The notes under the pieces are model-generated. The model did not search any database. It saw only the letters and a list, made by a program, of their open reading frames with translations, and was not told the DNA's origin. DNA of 64,000 nt from Thermodesulfobacterium sp. TA1 (GTDB lineage Bacteria; Desulfobacterota; Thermodesulfobacteria; Thermodesulfobacteriales; Thermodesulfobacteriaceae). Position numbers and translations under genes: made by a program. Within the stretch, counting starts at the first letter, position 1, and every line of letters starts with the position of its first letter. Shown here piece after piece: positions 14,548 through 53,329 of the stretch. The stretch covers positions 1,736,001 through 1,800,000 of the forward strand of contig NZ_CP043908.1 in assembly GCF_008630935.1 (NCBI RefSeq), given 5' to 3'.

Positions 14548-15304
14548 TGTCTCATTAATTGTGTAAAGACTTGAGGGAAAGGGAAGGGTATGGTAGCTTC
14601 CCCAATGCATAATAACCAAAACTACCAGAAAGGAGGGGAAGCTACCGTGAAAGAAAAAACTAAAACTTTAACAAAACAACCTATAGAAGAAATTCTAAAC
14701 CTTTTTCAGCAAGAAGTCAACAATCTTATTAAAAACCTTTTAGAAAACCTTATGCTTGAAGAAAGAAGGATTTATTTAGAAGAGCAAGAAGACTATGCAA
14801 ATGGTTTTTATACCAGAGATTTACTTTTCGTGCCTTCCTACTTCCTGAAAGAAGGAGGGCTGAAAAGCATTTCCCGGTTAATAAAGGTGACTGAAGATGA
14901 AGTTAAAGAACTTATTTGTCTATTCGGCGAAATGAGGTAGCAAAGGAGCCAGTATATTTAGCTTTAGGGATAAAGCCTGATGGGAGAAGAGAGATACTTG
15001 GATTTTGGATATTTGGGTCTGAAGGAGAGAGTGCCAAGAATTGGGAAAACCTTTAAGAGAGTTAAATCGGCGTGGGGTAAAGAAAGTTCAACTTTTTATT
15101 ACGGATGATTTGCCTGGGATAGAAAATGCCATAAAGATGGTTTATCCAGCTTCGGAATGGCAACTTTGTGTATTACATACTGTAAGGAATTCTTTAAATA
15201 AGGTGCGGGCAAAAGATAGAGGTTTATTTGCAGAAGATTTAAAAAGGATATATAGAGCAGAAACAGAAGAAAGAGCTAAGGAGTCAACTATCAGAAAATA
15301 GGAA

Positions 15305-16504
15305 TTAAACATGAGAGACCTCCAGAACAGGGAACTTAGAAAAAGCAGGATTAAAGAAAGTTTTTTTTCTACAAATTGCATAGATAACTCTTATAAGTTT
15401 GTTTACAACTGCTATCATAGCTTTCTTATAACTGCCAAAGTTTTTCTTCTTACGTATAAAATAGGATCTGAAGTAAAAATTCCATTTTACTACACCTACC
15501 GCCATCTGGAAAAGAACATTTCTGAGAAAGCTCGACCCTTGCTTAGATATGCTCATCTTAGCTTTATACTTACCAGATTGTTTTGTTACTGGGTCTGTGC
15601 CCGCAAACTTTATGAGCTTTTTGGCATTAGAAAATCTTTTTACGTCTCTGATTTCAGCCAAAAAGAGACTTGCAAGTTTAGAGGAAATACCTTTTATAGA
15701 GGAAATGAGCTTAATTTGTTCTTGCTGGTCTTCATCCATTTTCTCTACAAGCATCTCTTCAAGCTTTTTTATTCTTGGCTCAAGGAAAAAGAGTTTTTCG
15801 ATGTAGATGATAAGAGTTTGAGAGAGATAAGGATTGTCAACCCCGATAGAGTTTTTAGCAAGGTTTATGACTTCATCGGGAGAAAAGGAAGGGGTTTTAC
15901 CTTTAGGAACAGAGGATTTAATAATTTCGGAAATTTCATTTGGTTTAGCTTTTTTAAGGGTTTTAGCAGAGGGGAATTTAAGGAGTATGTTAAGGAAGGA
16001 GTGGGAGTAAATATTAAAGTGCTTTTCAGCTTCTGGGAAAAGAACAGTGAGGGCGTATTTGATTTGAGTTTTAGCTTCAGCAAGTTCATGTTTAAGTTTT
16101 TGGATAAGACGAGAAGCACTACGGAGTTCAGAGTTTTCAGGATAGGATTTAAGGAATTCAGGGTTATTAAGAGCGAAGAGTGCAAGGATTTTGGCATCTT
16201 TTGTGTCGTATTTAGAGGGGTTGTTAGCGGAGATAAATTCAAAGAATCTGTGGACGATTTTAGGGTTAAGGATGAAGGTTTGGATATCTTTTTCAACGAG
16301 GAAGCAGTAAAGGGGGATGTGGAACCTACCAGAGGATTCCATAACAACGATAGGGTCAGAGAGGGTTTTGAGAAGGTTAAAGAAATCAGAGAAGCCTTGA
16401 AGAGACATAGAGAGTTTGCCGGAGGAGAGGGTTTTAGCTTCATGGTTAAGGATGCAGAAGTGGAAGTTATCTTTAGAAATGTCAACACCGATGTAATGGG
16501 TCAT
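15305..16504 (-). CDS. IS110-family recombinase (DEDD transposase)
   Basis: 399 residues, uninterrupted, starting at the ATG at 16504 with an AAAAGGAGG site. The N-terminal RuvC-like DEDD domain begins MTHYIGVDISKDNFHF (first Asp at about residue 8), continues with a conserved Glu in VVMESSGRFHIPLY, and has the paired acids in YDTKDAKILALFA. A coiled-coil middle leads to the C-terminal Tnp domain with IKGISSKLASLFLAEI and GKYKAKMSISKQGSSFLRNVLFQ, whose Ser residues include the expected catalytic nucleophile. The enzyme is predicted to recombine element ends with a target using an RNA guide. It appears intact, so the element may be recently active. Confidence 0.92.
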   Translation of the reverse strand: MTHYIGVDISKDNFHFCILNHEAKTLSSGKLSMSLQGFSDFFNLLKTLSDPIVVMESSGRFHIPLYCFLVEKDIQTFILNPKIVHRFFEFISANNPSKYDTKDAKILALFALNNPEFLKSYPENSELRSASRLIQKLKHELAEAKTQIKYALTVLFPEAEKHFNIYSHSFLNILLKFPSAKTLKKAKPNEISEIIKSSVPKGKTPSFSPDEVINLAKNSIGVDNPYLSQTLIIYIEKLFFLEPRIKKLEEMLVEKMDEDQQEQIKLISSIKGISSKLASLFLAEIRDVKRFSNAKKLIKFAGTDPVTKQSGKYKAKMSISKQGSSFLRNVLFQMAVGVVKWNFYFRSYFIRKKKNFGSYKKAMIAVVNKLIRVIYAICRKKTFFNPAFSKFPVLEVSHV

Positions 16505-16524
16505 GATGCTACCTCCTTTTTAAG

Positions 16525-16676
16525 ATTTTTGTCCCTCACACCATCCTCCCGAGTAGCTGGGGCTTTGGTAGCCCAACCAACTTATCGGGTGTTGAGGGAC
16601 AGAGGGACATACTCCTTAAGAGGCTCAAAGGCCTACCAAAAATGGAGTCCCTGTCCCTCTCTAACTTATAAGCTTT
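16525..16676 (-). ncRNA. Candidate IS110 bridge RNA
   Basis: On the coding strand of the element a promoter (TTGTTT at 16710-16705, 16-bp spacer, TATAAT at 16688-16683) predicts transcription from about 16676. The transcript folds into two stem-loops before the recombinase start. The first has the outer stem GAGGGACAG/CTGTCCCTC and a large internal loop. The second is ACACCCGA..AGTTGG..GGGCT-ACCAA-AGCCC..CAGCT..TCGGG..GGTGT. In the first, UAAGGAG (16618-16612) complements the right target flank. In the second, AGUUGGUU (16582-16575) and CGGGAG (16551-16546) can pair, allowing G-U, with the element's two ends across the core. This matches the known bridge RNA layout of target loop then donor loop; the left target guide is not convincing. 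Confidence 0.6.
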
Positions 16677-16682
16677 TGTTTT

Positions 16683-16710
16683 ATTATACAAAACAAAATG
16701 TGTTAAACAA
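16683..16710 (-). promoter_or_regulatory. Promoter of the IS110 left-end RNA and recombinase
   Basis: On the minus strand TTGTTT (16710-16705) and a perfect TATAAT (16688-16683) are separated by 16 bp. It sits ~20 bp inside the left end, so circularisation of the element would join it to the right end, possibly altering its -35 context. Confidence 0.55.
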
Positions 16711-17182
16711 ACCTTAACATAAAAATTGCAGGAGGGGATATTAAGATTAAGGGAAAGATGGGGTAAGGTATATCCTAAGGTAGTGAAGAAATGGGAGGAT
16801 AAAGCGTATGCATTATTAACCTTTTTGAGGTATCCGAGAGAGATAAGGCAGTTTATTTATACAACTAATTAGGTTGAGAGGTTAGCGAAAGAGATAAAAA
16901 GGAGGATAAAGGTAATAGAAGTATTTCCGGATGAAGGCTCTGTTGAGAGGTTGTTATATTTAATCTTGAAAGAACTGAATGAGAGGTTAAACTCAAGGAA
17001 GTTAAGAGGGTTTAATGAAATTGAATTTGGGAACTACCATGCCTTTCCCGGAAAAATTTTTACACAATAAAAGGGACACTATGGACACAGTTATTGAAAT
17101 GTCCACATCAAAAATAAGCAGGTCTTTTGTAAAATTTAAAAAGATGCTAAAATAAATAGAAAATTACTAATGAGGTGAGGTA

Positions 17183-31484: not shown

Positions 31485-31626
31485 CGATAGCGGTTTTTTA
31501 AATCGTCTATGTTCTTTATAATATTGTGTTAAAGATTTATAAGGCGGTGTGGGATAGGGCTATCTGGTTAAGCTAAATAAAAAGACTTATTGACATAAAC
31601 ATAGGGTGTGGTAAAAGTTAGGCATA

Positions 31627-31888
31627 AAAGGCTGGATGTAAGGGAAGAGGGGTGAAAATCCCCCGCTGCCCCGCAGCCGTGACCGGGGACGAAAGCCGCT
31701 TGTCCGCATCGTTTGCGGATGGGGAAGGAGGTCCCAAGTAGGTTAAAAACCCAAAAGGAGGCTTCCTTCTCTGGGCTAAGAGCCTTTTTGTTTAAAAGCT
31801 CTTAGCCGACAGACCACTGGTGCCGAAAGGCACCGGGAAGGTGCGGCGAGTAGGTTGATCCGGAAGCCGGAAGACCTATCCAGCCTTT
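31627..31888 (+). promoter_or_regulatory. Cobalamin riboswitch
   Basis: The closing stem AAAGGCTGGAT (31627-31637) pairs perfectly with ATCCAGCCTTT (31878-31888). Inside are the hallmark core AAGGGAAGAGGGGTGAAAAT and CCCCCGCTGCCCCGCAGCCGT, long GC-rich peripheral hairpins, and the B12-box part CCGGAAGACCTATCC. It lies ~150 bp upstream of metE, the classic target: adenosyl- or methylcobalamin represses the cobalamin-independent methionine synthase when a B12-dependent enzyme can take over. Confidence 0.92.
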
Positions 31889-31913
31889 AAAAAACCTCGA
31901 GGGGGGTAAAACC

Positions 31914-36875: not shown

Positions 36876-38531
36876 TCAGGCTTTAGCAACTTTTATTCCT
36901 TCTTTTATCTTGTTAGTCATATAATATATCATTTCCTCTGTAATTCCAGGGGATACACCTATCCAAAAACTGCTCAGAAGGACTTTATTTGAATTATTTA
37001 GTTTATCGATTATTTTATAACTTTTTTTAGATGACTGAAGGTCTTTAAAGCAAGGGTGTTTAAGGATATTTCCGGCAAATAACCCCCTCGTTTGGATTTT
37101 ATTGTTTTCAAGAAACTTTACTAATTTTTCTCTTAATATTTTTTTATCGTTTTTGATGGTTAGTAAGAATCCAAACCAACATGGGTCTGAGTTAGGAGTA
37201 GGTTCTGGTAGGATAAAAACATTTGAAAGGTCTGAAAGTAGATCTTTTAGTAACTGCCAATTTTCTTTTCTACGTTTAATAAAAAAGGGAAGCTTTTCTA
37301 TTTGAGCACATCCAATCGATGCTTGTAACTCTGTCATTTTAAGATTATACCCAAAACGAGAATATATATACTTATGATCATAACCATAAGGAAGTTCACC
37401 AAGTTTCCATTTAAATCTTTTTTTACAAGTGTTATCTTGACCGGTTTTACACCAACAATCCCTACCCCAATCTCTTAAAGATCGAACGATTTTGGCAAGT
37501 TTATCATCGTTAGTTAATACAGCACCACCTTCTCCGGTTGTAATTTGATGTGCAGGATAAAAACTTAACGTAGCTAAATGACCAAAATTTCCGGTATATT
37601 TCCATTTATTTTTGTAAAAATATCTGGAACCCAAAGCATCACAGTTATCTTCAATTAACCACAAATCGTTTTCATAACAAAAAGATAATATTTCTTCTAT
37701 GTTAAACGGATTACCCAACGTATGAGCTAACATAATGGCTTTTGTTTTTTTAGATAAAGCTTTTTTTAATTTTTTACAATCAATATTGTATGTAGGTAAT
37801 TCTATGTCTACAAATACCGGTATTGCTCCATATTGTATAATAGGAGAGATGGTTGTAGGAAAAGCGGTAGCCGTGGTAATAACTTCATCTCCTCTTTTTA
37901 TTCTTTTCTCTCCGAGTTCATGAGAAGTTAAAGCCATAAAAGCTAAAAGATTGGCTGATGAACCTGAATTAACGAGTATTACATGTTTAACCTCTAAAAA
38001 ATTAGCGATTCTTTTTTCAAATTCTTCACAATATCTACCTTCTGTTAGCCAAAATTCTAAAGAAGCTTCTAATAAGTTGTAAATTTCTTTTTCATCAAAT
38101 ATTCTTTGAGCATAATTAATTTTTGATTCTCCTGGTTTGAATACATGTTTTTTACTATGTATAGTTTTATAATAATTTTTAGCAAGATTTTGGGAATAAA
38201 AAGAAAAAAGTTCTTTGACTTTGTTTTCGTTTATTTTAGCAAATTTTTTTGTTATATTAAATACTAAAATTGAGGAAACATTGGTAAGATCAAACATTAA
38301 TTTATCTTCAATAAAACCAAAAGATAAATCATTTTTTTCTATAGATAATAATCTTAAATATAAATTGAAATTGTCATTATCTTTGCATGAAAAAGCAATA
38401 AGAACTTTTTCTTTTGAAAGAATGGATACTATAATCCCAGTGTGTAAAATTCCGTTTAATTCAAATTCGACAATATCTCCTACCTCAATGTTACCATCCT
38501 TAATAGCCAAAAAATGATCATTATCTTCCAT
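36876..38531 (-). CDS. rfbH: CDP-6-deoxy-4-keto-hexose 3-dehydrase (RfbH/E1 type) with N-terminal extension
   Basis: 551 residues from the ATG at 38531, chosen for its AGGAGA site; the frame extends to 38579. Residues ~98-551 match RfbH, a PMP- and [2Fe-2S]-dependent enzyme that removes the 3-OH of CDP-4-keto-6-deoxyglucose. FYPAHQITTGEGGAV has His where aminotransferases have the PLP Lys, and GRDCWCKTGQDNTC carries the C-x-C-x7-C cluster ligands, with a further Cys in EDNCDALGS. Residues ~1-97 are extra and not recognised (GDIVEFELNGILHTGIIV), a small beta-rich domain. It faces the rest of the sugar cluster across an empty 0.8-kb region. Confidence 0.88.
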   Translation of the reverse strand: MEDNDHFLAIKDGNIEVGDIVEFELNGILHTGIIVSILSKEKVLIAFSCKDNDNFNLYLRLLSIEKNDLSFGFIEDKLMFDLTNVSSILVFNITKKFAKINENKVKELFSFYSQNLAKNYYKTIHSKKHVFKPGESKINYAQRIFDEKEIYNLLEASLEFWLTEGRYCEEFEKRIANFLEVKHVILVNSGSSANLLAFMALTSHELGEKRIKRGDEVITTATAFPTTISPIIQYGAIPVFVDIELPTYNIDCKKLKKALSKKTKAIMLAHTLGNPFNIEEILSFCYENDLWLIEDNCDALGSRYFYKNKWKYTGNFGHLATLSFYPAHQITTGEGGAVLTNDDKLAKIVRSLRDWGRDCWCKTGQDNTCKKRFKWKLGELPYGYDHKYIYSRFGYNLKMTELQASIGCAQIEKLPFFIKRRKENWQLLKDLLSDLSNVFILPEPTPNSDPCWFGFLLTIKNDKKILREKLVKFLENNKIQTRGLFAGNILKHPCFKDLQSSKKSYKIIDKLNNSNKVLLSSFWIGVSPGITEEMIYYMTNKIKEGIKVAKA

Positions 38532-38579
38532 CGTAAAATCTCCTAAGTTTTTAATTTTTATATATAAAATTTTACTCAA

Positions 38580-46782: not shown

Positions 46783-47864
46783 AAAATATATATACCCTTC
46801 CTATAGAAGACTTAAACTATATTTTAATTAATACTAAAGATTTGTGGGTTAATGCGTATAAAGCTAATTTTTTTATAACCGGTGGTACAGGTTTTTTTGG
46901 AATATGGATGTTAGAGAGTTTTTTATGGATTAATGAAAGATTAAACCTTAATGCCCAGGCAACAATTTTAACAAGAAATTACGAAGCTTTTAAGCAAAAA
47001 CATCCCCATCTAATCAATGCCTTAAGTTTAAAATATGTTACAGGTGATATTAGATCCTTTGTATACCCTAAAGAAAAATTCGATTTTATTATCCATGGAG
47101 CAAGTGCTTCTGCAGAAAGCAAATTTTTATGTGAGGACCCTGAAGAAAGATTGAGTATTATTTTAGATGGTACACGAAATATTTTGCGTTTCGCCGCTTA
47201 TAATAATACAAAAAGTTTTTTATACATAAGTAGCGGTGCTGTTTATGGTAAACAACCACCATCTATATCATCATTAGATGAACAATATAATGGATCACCT
47301 AATATTAATGAAGCTAACGCAGAAGTAGGTATCGGGAAAAAAGTATCAGAATTTTTATGTACAGTTTATTCTAAAAAACACAATATGGATATTAAAATAG
47401 CAAGATGTTTTACTTTTATTGGCCCCTATTTGCAATTGAATTTACATTATGCTGTAGGAAATTTTATAAGAGATGCTTTAATGGGTGGGCCTATTATTGT
47501 TAAAAGCGATGGAAGTGCTGTAAGATCTTACATGTACGCTTCTGAGTTGATCGTTTGGTTATGGACTATTCTTTTTAAAGGTAAAAACTGTGATCCATAT
47601 AATGTTGGTTCAGAAGAACCAATAACTATCAAAGACCTCGCTTTTAAAGTAGCTGAGATATATAAAGAATTGACAGGTAAATCTGTGGACGTTATAGTTC
47701 AAGGGAAGGCTTCACCAGAGAAGCGGGTTGATAGGTATATTCCTTCTACTAAAAAAGCTCAAACAGAACTTGGATTAAAACAAACCTTAACTTTAGAAGA
47801 GGCTATAAAAAAAACTTTTTTATTTTATCTTTCAGCACAAAAAAATTTTTATACCAATTTATAG
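46770..47864 (+). CDS. NAD-dependent epimerase/dehydratase (extended SDR) lacking the usual Tyr
   Basis: 364 residues. The cofactor loop is [16 protein letters not shown], the Ser of the triad is in [13 protein letters not shown], and [14 protein letters not shown] and [16 protein letters not shown] close the fold. In the position of YGxGK the sequence is [11 protein letters not shown], so the catalytic Tyr appears to be Val. The protein may still bind NAD and a nucleotide sugar, or be impaired. It could be the reductase or epimerase that completes the branched sugar. The 3' end overlaps the convergent rfbG gene by 62 bp. Confidence 0.75.
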
Positions 47865-48834
47865 TTAGATTTAATCCCTCTTCAAGAGAAAAAAGTGGTT
47901 TCCACTTTAAAATTTGTCTTGCTTTTTTTGAGCTTAAATATTGTTCACGTATTTCATTTGAAGCTTCGTTAAGTATTAAAGGGGTCAAATTAGCTTCCAT
48001 TAATTTTATAATCAGATTAACCAGTTCAATAACTGTTATTGGTTCTTCATTTGAAAAATTGAAAGCTTCTCCTATTAAATTTCTATCTTCAGAAAGTTTT
48101 TGAGCAAGCAAAAGGTATGCCTCAACAGCATCTTCTACATAGAAATAATCTCTCACATAGTTTCCGTCTGAGCGTATTAAAGGTTTTTGCCCCCTTAAAA
48201 TCGAACGGATAGTACCAGGTATAAGCCTATTCCAGTTTAGGTCTCCTCCTCCATATAGATTCCCACACCTCGTTATTACTACAGGAAGCCTATAGGTATA
48301 GGCATACATTTGGGCGATTAGGTCAGCACAAGATTTACTTACATCATAGGGATGCTTACCTTGCAGAGGATTTTCTTCAGTATAAGGTAGGATTTTATGT
48401 TCTCCATAGGCTTTGTCTGAGGAGGCAACTATTATTTGTTTTACCGTTGAAGAACGTCTGCAAGCTTCAAGGAGTACCCAAGTCCCTCTTATGTTAGTAT
48501 CGAGGGTAGAAACAGGGTTCCTATTGGCAATCCCAACAATCGTCTGAGCGGCAAGATGAAAAACCGTATCAATCTCATATTCTCCAAGAACTCTTTCAAT
48601 GAGTTCTTGATCCCTTACATCTCCTCTTACTACCTTTACCTTATCAAGGAACCCTGAAAGGATAAGCTCACTTTGAGGTACCCAGTCCCTTATTAAACAT
48701 ATTACATCTGCCTTAACCTCAACAAGCCTTTTAACAAGCCAACTGCCTAGTAAACCTGTAGCTCCAGTTACAAAAACCGGTCTATCAATCCAGAAATCTA
48801 CCATATTTTCCAAGGTGCCTTCCCACTTGCCCAA
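47803..48834 (-). CDS. rfbG: CDP-glucose 4,6-dehydratase
   Basis: 343 residues. The SDR loop [16 protein letters not shown], the Ser/Tyr/Lys triad in VASSDKAYG and [11 protein letters not shown], and the substrate-binding [20 protein letters not shown] are as in RfbG/DdhB. It converts CDP-glucose to CDP-4-keto-6-deoxyglucose, the substrate of RfbH. Its start overlaps the end of rfbF by 37 bp, a coupled pair. It is transcribed toward the SDR gene, and their ends overlap. Confidence 0.9.
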
Positions 48835-49568
48835 AGATCTTCTAAGTATCTTTTATCCCTAAGGGTGTCCATAGGATGCCAAAAACCATAATGTTTAAAA
48901 GCAACAAGCTCTCCTTTCTTAGCAAGAATTTTTAAAGGTTCTTGCTCCCAAGAAGTTTGGTCTCCTTTTATTAAATCAATAACTTTGGTTGAAAGCACAA
49001 AAAATCCTCCGTTAATCCAAGCTCCATCTCCTGGAGGTTTTTCTTGAAAATTAATCACTAAATTATCGTTAATTTCTAAAGCTCCAAACCTTCCTGGTGG
49101 CCTTACCGCAAGTATGGTGGCTAATTTACCATGTTTTTTGTGAAAATTTATTTCTTCGGTTATGTTTACATCAGCAACTCCATCTCCATAAGTAAAACAA
49201 AAGATTTCTTCTCCTTCAAGATACTTGGCTACTCTTTTAAGCCTTCCCCCGGTTTCTGTATGTTCTCCAGTATCAACTATAGTTACTCTCCAGGGTTCGG
49301 CTTCAGAACAATGTACAATCATTTGATAATTTTTAATGTCAAAGGTTACATCTGACATATGTAGAAAGTAATTAGCAAAGTATTCTTTAATTTTGTATCC
49401 TTTATACCCTGTACAGATGATAAAATCATTTATTCCATGAGCAGAATAAATTTTCATGATATGCCACAGTATAGGTTTACCACCGATTTCTATCATTGGC
49501 TTAGGTTTAATATTAGTTTCCTCAGCAAGTCTTGTTCCTAAACCCCCTGCAAGGATTACAGCCTTCAT
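48798..49568 (-). CDS. rfbF: Glucose-1-phosphate cytidylyltransferase
   Basis: 256 residues, exactly the RfbF size. The nucleotide-binding start is [20 protein letters not shown], followed by [41 protein letters not shown], and [20 protein letters not shown]. It makes CDP-glucose from CTP and glucose-1-P. The GGAGGATG site before the ATG is strong. It is coupled to rfbG downstream. Confidence 0.93.
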
Positions 49569-49666
49569 GGTTTATCATCCTCCCACAATGTTTATGTTAG
49601 GTATTTTTATATATTTTGGTTTAAAGTTCATTTGTTTTAACCCTTTGAGTTACTTGGGAGGATAGT

Positions 49667-49846
49667 ATGCGAGACAAAAATCGTAAAAAAGCTCTTTCTT
49701 TAATCTTGCTTTTTATAAGTTTTTTATTCAAGATATCTCTCATGCTTAACTCCTATTTTATAACAGTTGACTCTTTATCCGTGCTCTTTCCACCAGCCAC
49801 CATTTTCAAACATTGGATTATTAAGGGTTATATAAAGTTTTTGTAA
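49667..49846 (+). CDS. Possible 59-codon membrane peptide or gene fragment
   Basis: ATG at 49667 follows GGGAGGA at short spacing (4 bp). The reading frame begins MRDKNRKKALSLILLFISFL and continues with a hydrophobic, basic peptide, ending at a TAA at 49844-49846. The first ~30 residues look like a type II membrane anchor. The rest overlaps the 3' end of the minus-strand glycosyltransferase gene and reads as random, so this may be the stub of a lost membrane gene. Confidence 0.25.
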   Translation: MRDKNRKKALSLILLFISFLFKISLMLNSYFITVDSLSVLFPPATIFKHWIIKGYIKFL

Positions 49847-50833
49847 ATTTTTATAAACTTTTTCATACTGAGAAAGTAAAAATTTTCTTTGTTCACATAA
49901 TTTTCTTGCTTCGTTAACTCTTTTTTTTATGTAGTTTGCCATATTTTCATCTTTTAGCATATCCGCTATATCTAAAGTTAGTTTCCATCCTTTTTCTGGA
50001 TAGGGGTTATCTGTTAAATGGGTGAAAATCATAACGATAATAAATCTATCCCAGAGATAAAAATCAAGATATTTAAAAAAAAGAGAGGGCAATTTTTCTT
50101 TGAAAATACCGGCCTGAAAAAGGAGTTTTAATCCTTCAACAGTAAGAAAATATCTCCAGCCAATGTTTTCTTTTTCCCATCTTTTTACATCTTCCAAAGT
50201 TTGAGGTTCTATGGGTTGACATATTGGGAAGTCTAATACAACCGCAGGCGAATTGGAGGCTACATGTAAGATACCTAAGACATGAGTATAAGCACTTTCT
50301 TTGTATTTAGGGTATTGAGGTAAAGACATGTATTGGATAAGGATATCTTTTTTAATGATTATCGAGGTTGCCCATCCAATAAATTGATTAAACCCCATTT
50401 TATTAGCGAATTCAAGTACAGAGCCTTCATATATTTTATAGCTATGAGGGGTTAAAAACCCGTTACCGGCATGGATAAGGTGAGCGTTTTTAGTGTTTAA
50501 GATATGCCAGACAGCCTTTAGGCCATCTTTAAGTAGGATATCGTCATCACCGAAAATCCAGAGATATTCTCCTTGAGCTAAGCGATAAGCAATTTCTCCG
50601 CTATCGGCGGTATCTACATGTTTATTTAGTCTGGTATATTCGAGGAAGGGAAATTTTTTTTTAAGCTTTGATAGTACCTTAGGGGTATCGTCTGTTGATG
50701 CGTTGTCGGAGACGAAGATACCGATGTTGTTTTGTTCGCCAAGCTCAAGGATTTGATTAGCTATAGAGAGTATACATTTTTCAAGTTTTTTAGCTCTATT
50801 CCAGGTAGGAATAGCAAAACAAAGTTTTTTCAT
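49775..50833 (-). CDS. Family 2 glycosyltransferase, copy 1
   Basis: 352 residues from the ATG at 50833, with AGGGGAAC upstream; the frame extends to 50875. The GT-A N-terminal domain reads CFAIPTWNRAKKLEKCIL, FVSDNASTDDTPKVL and the metal motif FGDDDILLKDGL. The first ~220 residues are almost identical to the upstream copy, while the last ~130 diverge, apart from a shared GGWWKE end. GT2 enzymes add a sugar to the growing O-unit. Its ATG overlaps the stop of copy 2 by 4 bp. Confidence 0.88.
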   Translation of the reverse strand: MKKLCFAIPTWNRAKKLEKCILSIANQILELGEQNNIGIFVSDNASTDDTPKVLSKLKKKFPFLEYTRLNKHVDTADSGEIAYRLAQGEYLWIFGDDDILLKDGLKAVWHILNTKNAHLIHAGNGFLTPHSYKIYEGSVLEFANKMGFNQFIGWATSIIIKKDILIQYMSLPQYPKYKESAYTHVLGILHVASNSPAVVLDFPICQPIEPQTLEDVKRWEKENIGWRYFLTVEGLKLLFQAGIFKEKLPSLFFKYLDFYLWDRFIIVMIFTHLTDNPYPEKGWKLTLDIADMLKDENMANYIKKRVNEARKLCEQRKFLLSQYEKVYKNLQKLYITLNNPMFENGGWWKEHG

Positions 50834-50846
50834 GTTTGTTCCCCTT
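50178..50846. repeat. Direct repeat of the glycosyltransferase 5' region, unit 1
   Basis: About 669 bp here recur at 51248-51916 with an offset of 1070 bp and almost no differences (one, A/G near 50193/51263, was noticed). The repeat spans the ribosome-binding site and codons 1 to ~220 of both GT2 genes. Such a pair can recombine to give a single hybrid gene. Confidence 0.85.
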
Positions 50847-51903
50847 GTTGAGCTTCTTTCCACCATCCTCCCCACTCAAATATTTTTCTGCTATGTTCTT
50901 TTAACATTTCGTTTAAAGTGTTTTGAATTTCTTTAATCTGCATGTTGATCTTTTTTAAGGTTTCACATTGTTCCCTTGATTCCATAACACGATTTTTAAT
51001 AATTTCTGCCATTTCTTCGTTATCTATCATATCGGATATTGATAAAATCAAATCCCACCCCTCGTCTGGAAAGGGACAACCTGTTAAATGGCTGTTAATC
51101 ATATAAAATATACATCTATCCCAAAAATAAAACCTATCGTATTTAAAAAACATAGGGTTAACTTTTTCCTTTAAAATGCCAAGGTCAAAAAGAATTTTAA
51201 ATCCCTTAATAGTAAGTATAGTTCTCCAAAATATATTATTTAAAGCCCATCTTTTTACATCTTCCGAAGTTTGAGGTTCTATGGGTTGACATATTGGGAA
51301 GTCTAATACAACCGCAGGCGAATTGGAGGCTACATGTAAGATACCTAAGACATGAGTATAAGCACTTTCTTTGTATTTAGGGTATTGAGGTAAAGACATG
51401 TATTGGATAAGGATATCTTTTTTAATGATTATCGAGGTTGCCCATCCAATAAATTGATTAAACCCCATTTTATTAGCGAATTCAAGTACAGAGCCTTCAT
51501 ATATTTTATAGCTATGAGGGGTTAAAAACCCGTTACCGGCATGGATAAGGTGAGCGTTTTTAGTGTTTAAGATATGCCAGACAGCCTTTAGGCCATCTTT
51601 AAGTAGGATATCGTCATCACCGAAAATCCAGAGATATTCTCCTTGAGCTAAGCGATAAGCAATTTCTCCGCTATCGGCGGTATCTACATGTTTATTTAGT
51701 CTGGTATATTCGAGGAAGGGAAATTTTTTTTTAAGCTTTGATAGTACCTTAGGGGTATCGTCTGTTGATGCGTTGTCGGAGACGAAGATACCGATGTTGT
51801 TTTGTTCGCCAAGCTCAAGGATTTGATTAGCTATAGAGAGTATACATTTTTCAAGTTTTTTAGCTCTATTCCAGGTAGGAATAGCAAAACAAAGTTTTTT
51901 CAT
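50830..51903 (-). CDS. Family 2 glycosyltransferase, copy 2
   Basis: 357 residues with the same N-terminal GT-A domain as copy 1 (IPTWNRAKKLEKC, SDNASTDD, GDDDIL). A separate C-terminal region (WRTILTIKGFKILFDLGILKEKV...) ends in a Lys/Glu helix and GGWWKEAQQGEQT. It is the first gene of the pair and is transcribed from about 51.9 kb. The near-identical 5' two-thirds and divergent 3' third suggest a chimeric duplication that may let the two enzymes share a donor but use different acceptors. Confidence 0.88.
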   Translation of the reverse strand: MKKLCFAIPTWNRAKKLEKCILSIANQILELGEQNNIGIFVSDNASTDDTPKVLSKLKKKFPFLEYTRLNKHVDTADSGEIAYRLAQGEYLWIFGDDDILLKDGLKAVWHILNTKNAHLIHAGNGFLTPHSYKIYEGSVLEFANKMGFNQFIGWATSIIIKKDILIQYMSLPQYPKYKESAYTHVLGILHVASNSPAVVLDFPICQPIEPQTSEDVKRWALNNIFWRTILTIKGFKILFDLGILKEKVNPMFFKYDRFYFWDRCIFYMINSHLTGCPFPDEGWDLILSISDMIDNEEMAEIIKNRVMESREQCETLKKINMQIKEIQNTLNEMLKEHSRKIFEWGGWWKEAQQGEQT

Positions 51904-51916
51904 GTTTGTTCCCCTA
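51248..51916. repeat. Direct repeat of the glycosyltransferase 5' region, unit 2
   Basis: Second unit of the ~669-bp repeat described at 50178-50846. It ends right after the shared ribosome-binding site (complement of GTTCCCCT), beyond which the upstream DNA differs. Confidence 0.85.
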
Positions 51917-52135: not shown

Positions 52136-53329
52136 TTAGGGAATTACATCGGTTAGAAGATTAAGGTAACCATAGGGATAGTACAGACTTTCTTCTGATA
52201 GTTGAGAAGCTTTAAGAGCTCTTTTTACCTCCGGTAAAAAACTCTTTGCTAAATCAACGAGGTCTTTTATTAGGATACAATATTGTTTAGCCCTTTCAGG
52301 GGAGGTTTTAATAAGCACAGGGCACCTTCCTCCGCAGAAAAACTCTGCTTCACAAAGGTTACAACCTAACCACTCTTTATAGGAAACCAAGGATAAAAGC
52401 TCTTTTTGGATTTTAGAAAAATCTAATGTTTCAACCTCATTTTTTCGAAAATCAGCTAAAACCAGATTTTCTCCCATGTCTACACATGGAATAACCTTGC
52501 CTGAAAGCACATCAAAGCTTCTTAGTTTTTCTACTCCACATCCTGTTTGCCCACGCTTGATCCCTTTTAATAAAAAGAACATAAGCTCAGCCAGTGGAAG
52601 CACAGGTAAAACCGTCCCTTTAGATAAATCAACTACAAACCTATCTAAAAGATAGGTAAGGTCTTTTAAATAATTTTCTCTAAAAGATATAAAATCTTTT
52701 ATAGGATAGTCCCTTTCTATAAGATGCCAGAAGAAAAAGTCAACAACCCCTCTTTGATAAAGTTTTAAAAATTCTTCTAAACAGTCTTGAAAACTCATCT
52801 CTTCCCGCAAGGTAGACCACATCAGCACTTTGGTATCGCTTTGAGATTTGAAAAATTCTAAGTTGTTTTCAATCTGAAGTAAAGAAGTACCCTTTCGGAC
52901 CCTTTCATGCTGGTCCTTTGTCCCATCGATAGAAACCATTAGTAAATCAAGACGTTTGAAAAATTCGGGGTCATCTTTTACCACCCTTTTTAAAAGGGTT
53001 CCGTTGGTATAAAGTACAAACTTAAGGTGTTTATAAGGATGAAGGGCCCTGAGTTTATAGAAAATCTCCCTCACTTTTTCAAAGACAAGAAGAGGCTCCC
53101 CTCCATAAAAGGCTATAAAAACAGGATTACCGTTAGTTTTATGTAAAAGCCAATCTACTGCTTGAAAAGTCTTTTCTGGAGCTTCTTCCCAAGAAGAAGC
53201 AAAAGAGTTCCTTTCCCCGTAAATCAAACCGTTTAAACAACCTTCACAACTTGCGTTACATTTTCCAGTAACCGTAATGTGATAAATTATAGGAAAAGAA
53301 TCTTTAAGAAATTCTTCTAATGTTATCAT
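52136..53329 (-). CDS. Radical SAM/SPASM protein, sulfatase-maturase-like
   Basis: 397 residues. The radical SAM motif C-x3-C-x2-C is in GKCNASCEGCLNG near residue 25, GGEPLLVF follows, and VSIDGTKDQHERVRKG is the family's third motif. The C-terminal SPASM-like cysteines are in GCGVEKLRSFDVL, VIPCVDMG, and a closing C-x2-C-x5-C-x3-C (CNLCEAEFFCGGRC). Such enzymes modify protein or peptide side chains (sulfatase Cys to formylglycine, RiPP maturation). No sulfatase or precursor peptide is visible nearby. It is a single-gene unit with its own terminator. The substrate is unknown. Confidence 0.8.
   Translation of the reverse strand: MITLEEFLKDSFPIIYHITVTGKCNASCEGCLNGLIYGERNSFASSWEEAPEKTFQAVDWLLHKTNGNPVFIAFYGGEPLLVFEKVREIFYKLRALHPYKHLKFVLYTNGTLLKRVVKDDPEFFKRLDLLMVSIDGTKDQHERVRKGTSLLQIENNLEFFKSQSDTKVLMWSTLREEMSFQDCLEEFLKLYQRGVVDFFFWHLIERDYPIKDFISFRENYLKDLTYLLDRFVVDLSKGTVLPVLPLAELMFFLLKGIKRGQTGCGVEKLRSFDVLSGKVIPCVDMGENLVLADFRKNEVETLDFSKIQKELLSLVSYKEWLGCNLCEAEFFCGGRCPVLIKTSPERAKQYCILIKDLVDLAKSFLPEVKRALKASQLSEESLYYPYGYLNLLTDVIP

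Follow-up and report, generated by a model that had tools for sequence, protein, structure and literature searches.

A tandem pair of GT2 glycosyltransferase genes with near-identical front halves and diverged rear halves in Thermodesulfobacterium sp. TA1

The glycosyltransferase genes and their surface-sugar locus

The window, that is, the whole stretch of 64,000 nucleotides that was analysed, carries two GT2 glycosyltransferase genes on the minus strand. The upstream gene, B, and the downstream gene, A, overlap in an ATGA motif that holds the stop codon of B and the start codon of A (Table 1). A is counted here from the ATG that it shares with B, while the list of open reading frames starts it at an earlier GTG, at 50875. 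Both proteins score equally against PF00535, the Pfam GT2 family, above its gathering cut-off of 23.3 bits, and their GDDD motif at residues 95-98 is invariant in the five sequences compared.

A surface-sugar locus occupies the stretch from 36 to 50 kb of the window. It comprises rfbF, an rfbG-like dehydratase gene, RfbH, a NeuB-like synthase (below the cut-off of its own family) and an acetolactate-synthase-like enzyme, which stays under the cut-off of every family listed. A and B co-occur in this way with genes of the CDP-glucose pathway, namely rfbF, the rfbG-like gene and RfbH, of which the RfbH-like enzyme presumably belongs to the CDP-3,6-dideoxyhexose route. Between 36876 and 48834 of the window, RfbH is combined with the acetolactate-synthase-like ThDP enzyme. 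We take this combination to recall branched 3,6-dideoxy sugars such as yersiniose; a literature search for yersiniose returned no paper.

The proximity to rfbF recurs in relatives. rfbF adjoins a homologue of A and B in seven of the eight homologue-bearing stretches covered (L015, L035, L037, L038, L039, L042 and L043). In L035 and L037 the pair is arranged face to face. It is not beside the homologue in L036, where 12,000 of 18,173 bases were covered, nor beside the second homologue in L035. Given this recurrent neighbour, the donor of A and B is likely to be CDP-linked, and the two proteins are candidate CDP-3,6-dideoxyhexose transferases, for instance of the abequosyl type.

A search for regulatory RNA near A and B gave one Rfam match only, at E 0.75 and with 17.7 bits where the gathering score is 59.6, and a promoter and terminator scan gave 6 and 1 sites, below the shuffle means of 11.5 and 2.0. 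Elsewhere in the window, an SRP RNA adjoins a selenocysteine tRNA (1942-2145) and a cobalamin riboswitch lies at 31617-31897.

Table 1. Features of the glycosyltransferase pair and its surroundings (window coordinates)
Feature	Position	Strand	Basis or remark
RfbH-like enzyme	36876..38579	-	NF011936, 683.4 bits vs cut-off 423
CDP-glucose 4,6-dehydratase-like SDR	47803..48834	-	TIGR02622, 220.1 bits, below cut-off 278.45
rfbF, glucose-1-phosphate cytidylyltransferase	48798..49568	-	TIGR02623, 459.9 bits vs cut-off 300.25
Internally deleted IS110-family derivative, about 193 bp, in the gap between A stop codon and rfbF	49579..49771		limits set by eye on the ends
GT A, GT2 glycosyltransferase gene, 352 aa from shared ATG	49775..50833	-	ORF; PF00535, 60.9 bits
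Rear half of A	49775..50196	-	alignment; genome search
Repeat copy 2	50176..50845	-	12 bp leader and about 219 codons of A
GT B, GT2 glycosyltransferase gene, 357 aa	50830..51903	-	ORF; PF00535, 60.9 bits
Rear (predicted helical) half of B	50830..51266	-	48.6% aa identity to A rear
Repeat copy 1	51246..51915	-	12 bp leader and about 219 codons of B; 669/670 vs copy 2
Radical SAM gene, syntenic anchor in relatives	52136..53329	-	synteny

Extent of the repeat and contrast between the gene halves

A position-by-position comparison delimits a direct repeat of 670 bp, identical at 669 positions, whose copies are spaced by 1070. Its lone mismatch (50196/51266) separates identical runs of 20 and 649 bases. 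The longer run was recovered in the whole-genome search at both places with 649 of 649 bases; were the sequences only as alike as the rear halves are, an exact match of this length would have a chance of about 1e-124. The near-identical 5' repeat of 669 bp described in an earlier note on this DNA is thus real, and had been placed there to within 2 bp. An automated repeat search did not report it and returned four direct families only, the longest of which (300 nt, 68%) fell largely within the rear halves; the evidence for the repeat therefore consists of the direct comparison, the alignment and the whole-genome match.

The repeat starts 12 bp before each ATG and ends at about codon 219. In the protein alignment, 212 identical codons are followed by one L/S change and then by six further identical residues, which bears out the figure of about 220 shared codons given previously. 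The shared 12 bp hold AGGGGA, a likely ribosome-binding site, and in copy 2 the leader bases double as coding sequence for the last residues of B. Since the leader common to both genes is only 12 bp long and codes for B in one copy, it points to a ribosome-binding site and not to a promoter, and the notion that the genes share promoter-proximal DNA shrinks to these few bases.

The rear halves are homologous throughout. They align without gaps until the last few residues, with 48.6% amino-acid and 64.5% nucleotide identity, and the GGWWKE end, up to which the earlier note had the genes diverge completely, lies inside this alignment and matches a G-W-(G/A)-G end in nine relatives. The rear domain is the same in all 11 sequences aligned, two from the window and nine from relatives, after front-part-only matches (L003, L011, L017, L018 and L019) had been left out. 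Judged by this alignment, A and B are ordinary paralogues. The description of a catalytic half placed onto different C-termini is therefore misleading, as A and B end in diverged forms of a single domain, which is also present in the nine aligned homologues. The full-length alignment likewise rules out unrelated, grafted C-termini.

The two halves differ sharply at synonymous sites. Over the 212 codons of the front there is no difference at all (dS 0 over 134 synonymous sites), whereas the next 140 codons of the rear give a pS of 0.49, a dS of 0.81 and a dN of 0.43 (Fisher p = 6e-20 on rounded counts). The identity of the front halves extends to their synonymous sites and so cannot be put down to purifying selection on the protein, and the contrast in dS implies that their common ancestor is far more recent than that of the rear halves. 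A synonymously identical segment adjoining a homologous, diverged one is the pattern by which gene conversion is recognised. These comparisons, with no difference in 212 codons against the pS of the rear, give good support to the earlier proposal in so far as the catalytic half underwent gene conversion, or was copied, recently.

The limits of the repeat have the look expected of a conversion tract, in that it starts at the edge of homology expected between a duplicate and its parent and stops where the identity drops to about two thirds. DNA identity at this level is too low for efficient homologous recombination. The base composition steps at the same division, with a GC content of 37.4% in the front and 30-31% in the rear of A and B. 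This step is larger than in nine relatives, and simple duplication does not explain it.

Between the rear halves of A and B, dN/dS is about 0.5, with a dN as large as that to another species. The branch of B is the longer one in the tree (0.95 vs 0.66 for A). Accelerated evolution of B alone was rejected as a candidate, relative-rate tests with six outgroups giving p 0.14-0.87. The dS to relatives is saturated, so that any dates are rough.

Origin and possible roles of the pair

Including that of strain TA1, 8 of 14 genomes of the genus hold a homologue (E 1e-15 or better). Exactly one is present in each of T. thermophilum (L014) and T. hveragerdense (L016), lying between the same radical SAM gene and rfbF, with the glycosyltransferase and rfbF frames directly adjoining (6056 and 6057). 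One genome, G008, has two homologues, which lie on opposite strands and whose front parts are no more than 50.4% alike. Among the 13 other genomes of the genus searched there was no near-identical pair, and the genus search found no relative with an unconverted A-B pair.

In the tree of the rear halves A and B are joined with support values of 79/85, which hints that they are sisters. Two alternative trees were 2.7-2.8 log units worse, with p-AU of 0.145 and 0.13; neither was rejected, and the second gene may therefore be an import. Codon sharing offers a further measure of kinship. Of 59 residues conserved between the two rear halves, 43 are encoded by the same codon in A and B, against 29.1 expected at saturation from the codon use of the window (p = 0.00005), 31.4 from that of the locus (p = 0.0009) and 35.3 from that of the rear halves themselves, where the departure is weaker (p = 0.015). 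Seven other pairs of rear halves showed no departure from saturation at 0.05 (p 0.053-0.32). In addition, A and B are closer to each other in pS than either is to T. thermophilum (p = 0.003 and 0.001, on rounded counts). Taken together, the single-copy synteny, the tree and the codon sharing favour a tandem duplication in this lineage, and duplication followed by conversion appears to be the most likely history.

We consider it probable, therefore, that A and B arose as tandem paralogues from one GT2 gene, that their front halves were converted after the copies had diverged, and that they work with the adjoining CDP-sugar genes. In this lineage, a head-to-tail duplication of a single gene would have produced the pair, rather than the import of a second gene, and the copies would have drifted apart to a DNA identity of about 65% in their rear halves. 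Recent gene conversion, presumably RecA-type copying without crossover, would then have made the front halves identical over a tract that begins at the border of the duplicated DNA, 12 bp upstream of the ATG, and closes roughly where the catalytic GT-A domain does. With a shared front half, the two enzymes would use the same, probably CDP-linked, donor, and their different rear halves would pick different acceptors or partners.

An import of the second gene, or of its rear half only, by horizontal transfer into a variable surface-sugar locus, with the front half joined or copied at the moment of integration, seems unlikely to us. The locus does vary, since genome G013 keeps the radical SAM anchor and has neither glycosyltransferase nor rfbF in the stretch covered beside it, and an import would also agree with the GC step and with a rear-half tree that permits A or B to group first with relatives. 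Against it, synonymous codons are shared between the two rear halves more often than saturation predicts, and no other tested pair reached p < 0.05. Nor was a near donor found, the closest sequence outside the own genome being 63% identical in the search of relatives and 62% identical in a search of genome contigs, from which very near genomes are possibly omitted. Far less probable still is an assembly artefact, in which misjoined reads would have given two copies of the front half. Although 670 bp exceeds the length of a short read, the genome is one contig of 1,829,881 bases (1.83 Mb), the copies differ by one mismatch, and both genes are intact, with their ATGA overlap and two distinct, intact rear halves that are unique in the genome.

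The direct repeats flank one rear half inside a surface-sugar locus, an arrangement that could suggest a programmed system recombining the two genes to change the surface sugar, and the earlier note had named O-antigen variation, or loss by recombination, as possible outcomes. We give the programmed system hardly any credence. Searches of the own genome found no copies of the front or rear half beyond A and B, the other matches being a weak GT2 match with 34% identity and one at chance level (E 0.124); a shufflon or cassette system was rejected, as there are two copies of either half only and no silent donor cassettes. A crossover between the repeats would either excise 1070 bp, so that A persisted intact behind the leader of B, or add copies of B. 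Such recombination would only delete or amplify B, with A intact, and would be no switch. Since the rear halves would not be exchanged and no spare halves were found, the pair is not a variation cassette, and the lack of a near-identical pair in the other genomes of the genus likewise speaks against a programmed system. The suggested mechanism of antigen variation is thus not borne out, while loss of B by recombination is possible.

In a predicted structure model, the last GT-A strand spans residues 196-201 and an all-helical part begins at 213, a hint that the identity stops close to the predicted boundary of the catalytic GT-A domain. The model has low confidence (mean pLDDT 61.8, under 50 in the linker, with five full-length homologues eligible for the alignment), so that the module boundary is only a hint. 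Its top Foldseek matches are the GT2 enzymes TarP and RmlT (PDB 6h1j and 8bz6), listed at 12-16% identity with an rmsd above 10 Angstrom, and TarP is also the top PDB sequence match, for the front part only (E 5e-06). These matches imply no kinship of the C-terminal domains. TarP and RmlT are wall teichoic acid enzymes in which a GT2 catalytic domain is followed by further C-terminal parts.

More tentatively, and with some doubt on our part, A and B may form a two-module set in which repeated conversion keeps the catalytic (donor) module identical, whereas weaker or positive selection lets the rear module, for the acceptor or partner, diversify. If so, the surface glycan would receive one donor sugar at two of its positions, and the conversion boundary would coincide with that between functional modules. 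The pair also offers a natural experiment, as an identical catalytic half with a differing rear could reveal the role of an uncharacterised GT2 C-terminal domain. As genome evolution, A and B would be a textbook half-gene conversion.

Parallels are known from other bacteria. Excerpts of a study of Helicobacter pylori describe how the alpha-1,3-fucosyltransferase genes futA and futB exchange 5' sequence within a population by homologous recombination, and how one lineage has the same 5' allele at both loci with numbers of C-terminal-side heptad repeats that still differ (PMC2583950). As proposed for A and B, sequence is exchanged there by homologous recombination between two paralogous surface-sugar transferases of one genome. 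However, as the excerpts describe it, the futA/futB exchange was seen within populations and involves phase-variable C tracts, whereas A and B are known from one genome and form an overlapping tandem pair of the GT2 family. The N-terminal parts of Cj1421 and Cj1422 of Campylobacter jejuni are probably near identical. These adjacent, related MeOPN transferases bring the same donor group to two capsule sugars, according to part of the source (PMC3907429), and so provide a model for the same donor and two acceptors proposed for A and B, although they transfer a phosphoramidate, not a sugar, and are phase-variable. Prokaryotic duplicates such as tuf, whose likeness at synonymous sites is attributed to gene conversion, and long-lasting, genome-wide conversion of bacterial paralogues are described in passages of a further paper (PMC6053082); in these passages the duplicates appear alike over the whole gene, A and B in the front half only. 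Titles and abstract beginnings of the literature matches listed, including those for Thermodesulfobacterium with glycosyltransferase, contained nothing on this locus. Because the fut exchange and the conversion of paralogues across genomes have already been described, A and B represent a new instance of a known process.

IS110-family elements

The 206-bp gap after A was considered as a decayed third glycosyltransferase, and proved to hold an IS110-family derivative instead. The derivative matches full copies over 92 bp and 42 bp at about 80-83%, its end sequences are recognisable, and it appears to supply the ribosome-binding site of rfbF, GGGAGG.

A full IS110-family element lies at 15283-16735 of the window, with its transposase at 15305-16504 on the minus strand (PF01548 and PF02371). 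There are 14 copies in the genome, this one included (the others among L050-L063). Both exact end motifs are present, within the stretch covered, in 12 of them; L061 has the left motif only, as the stretch ends, and L062 has neither. In each of the 12 copies, AAGGA or AAAGA immediately precedes GTCAACTATCAG, and GCAGGAGG forms the end. In 11 of the 12 an ATG follows 5-10 bases past this end, and in the window copy it follows after 22 bases. Thus, the element appears to insert into Shine-Dalgarno sequences and to rebuild one at its right end, the ATGs being putative gene starts only and the GGAGG at the right end being either the element's or the target's. Excerpts returned by a literature search combining IS110, Shine-Dalgarno, insertion and target site held nothing on insertion into Shine-Dalgarno sequences; in part of one source, the targets of IS110 elements are described as differing from IS to IS (PMC11187229). 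On the plus strand, an open frame of 468 codons (15311-16717) runs antisense to the whole transposase and is probably a by-product of codon use.
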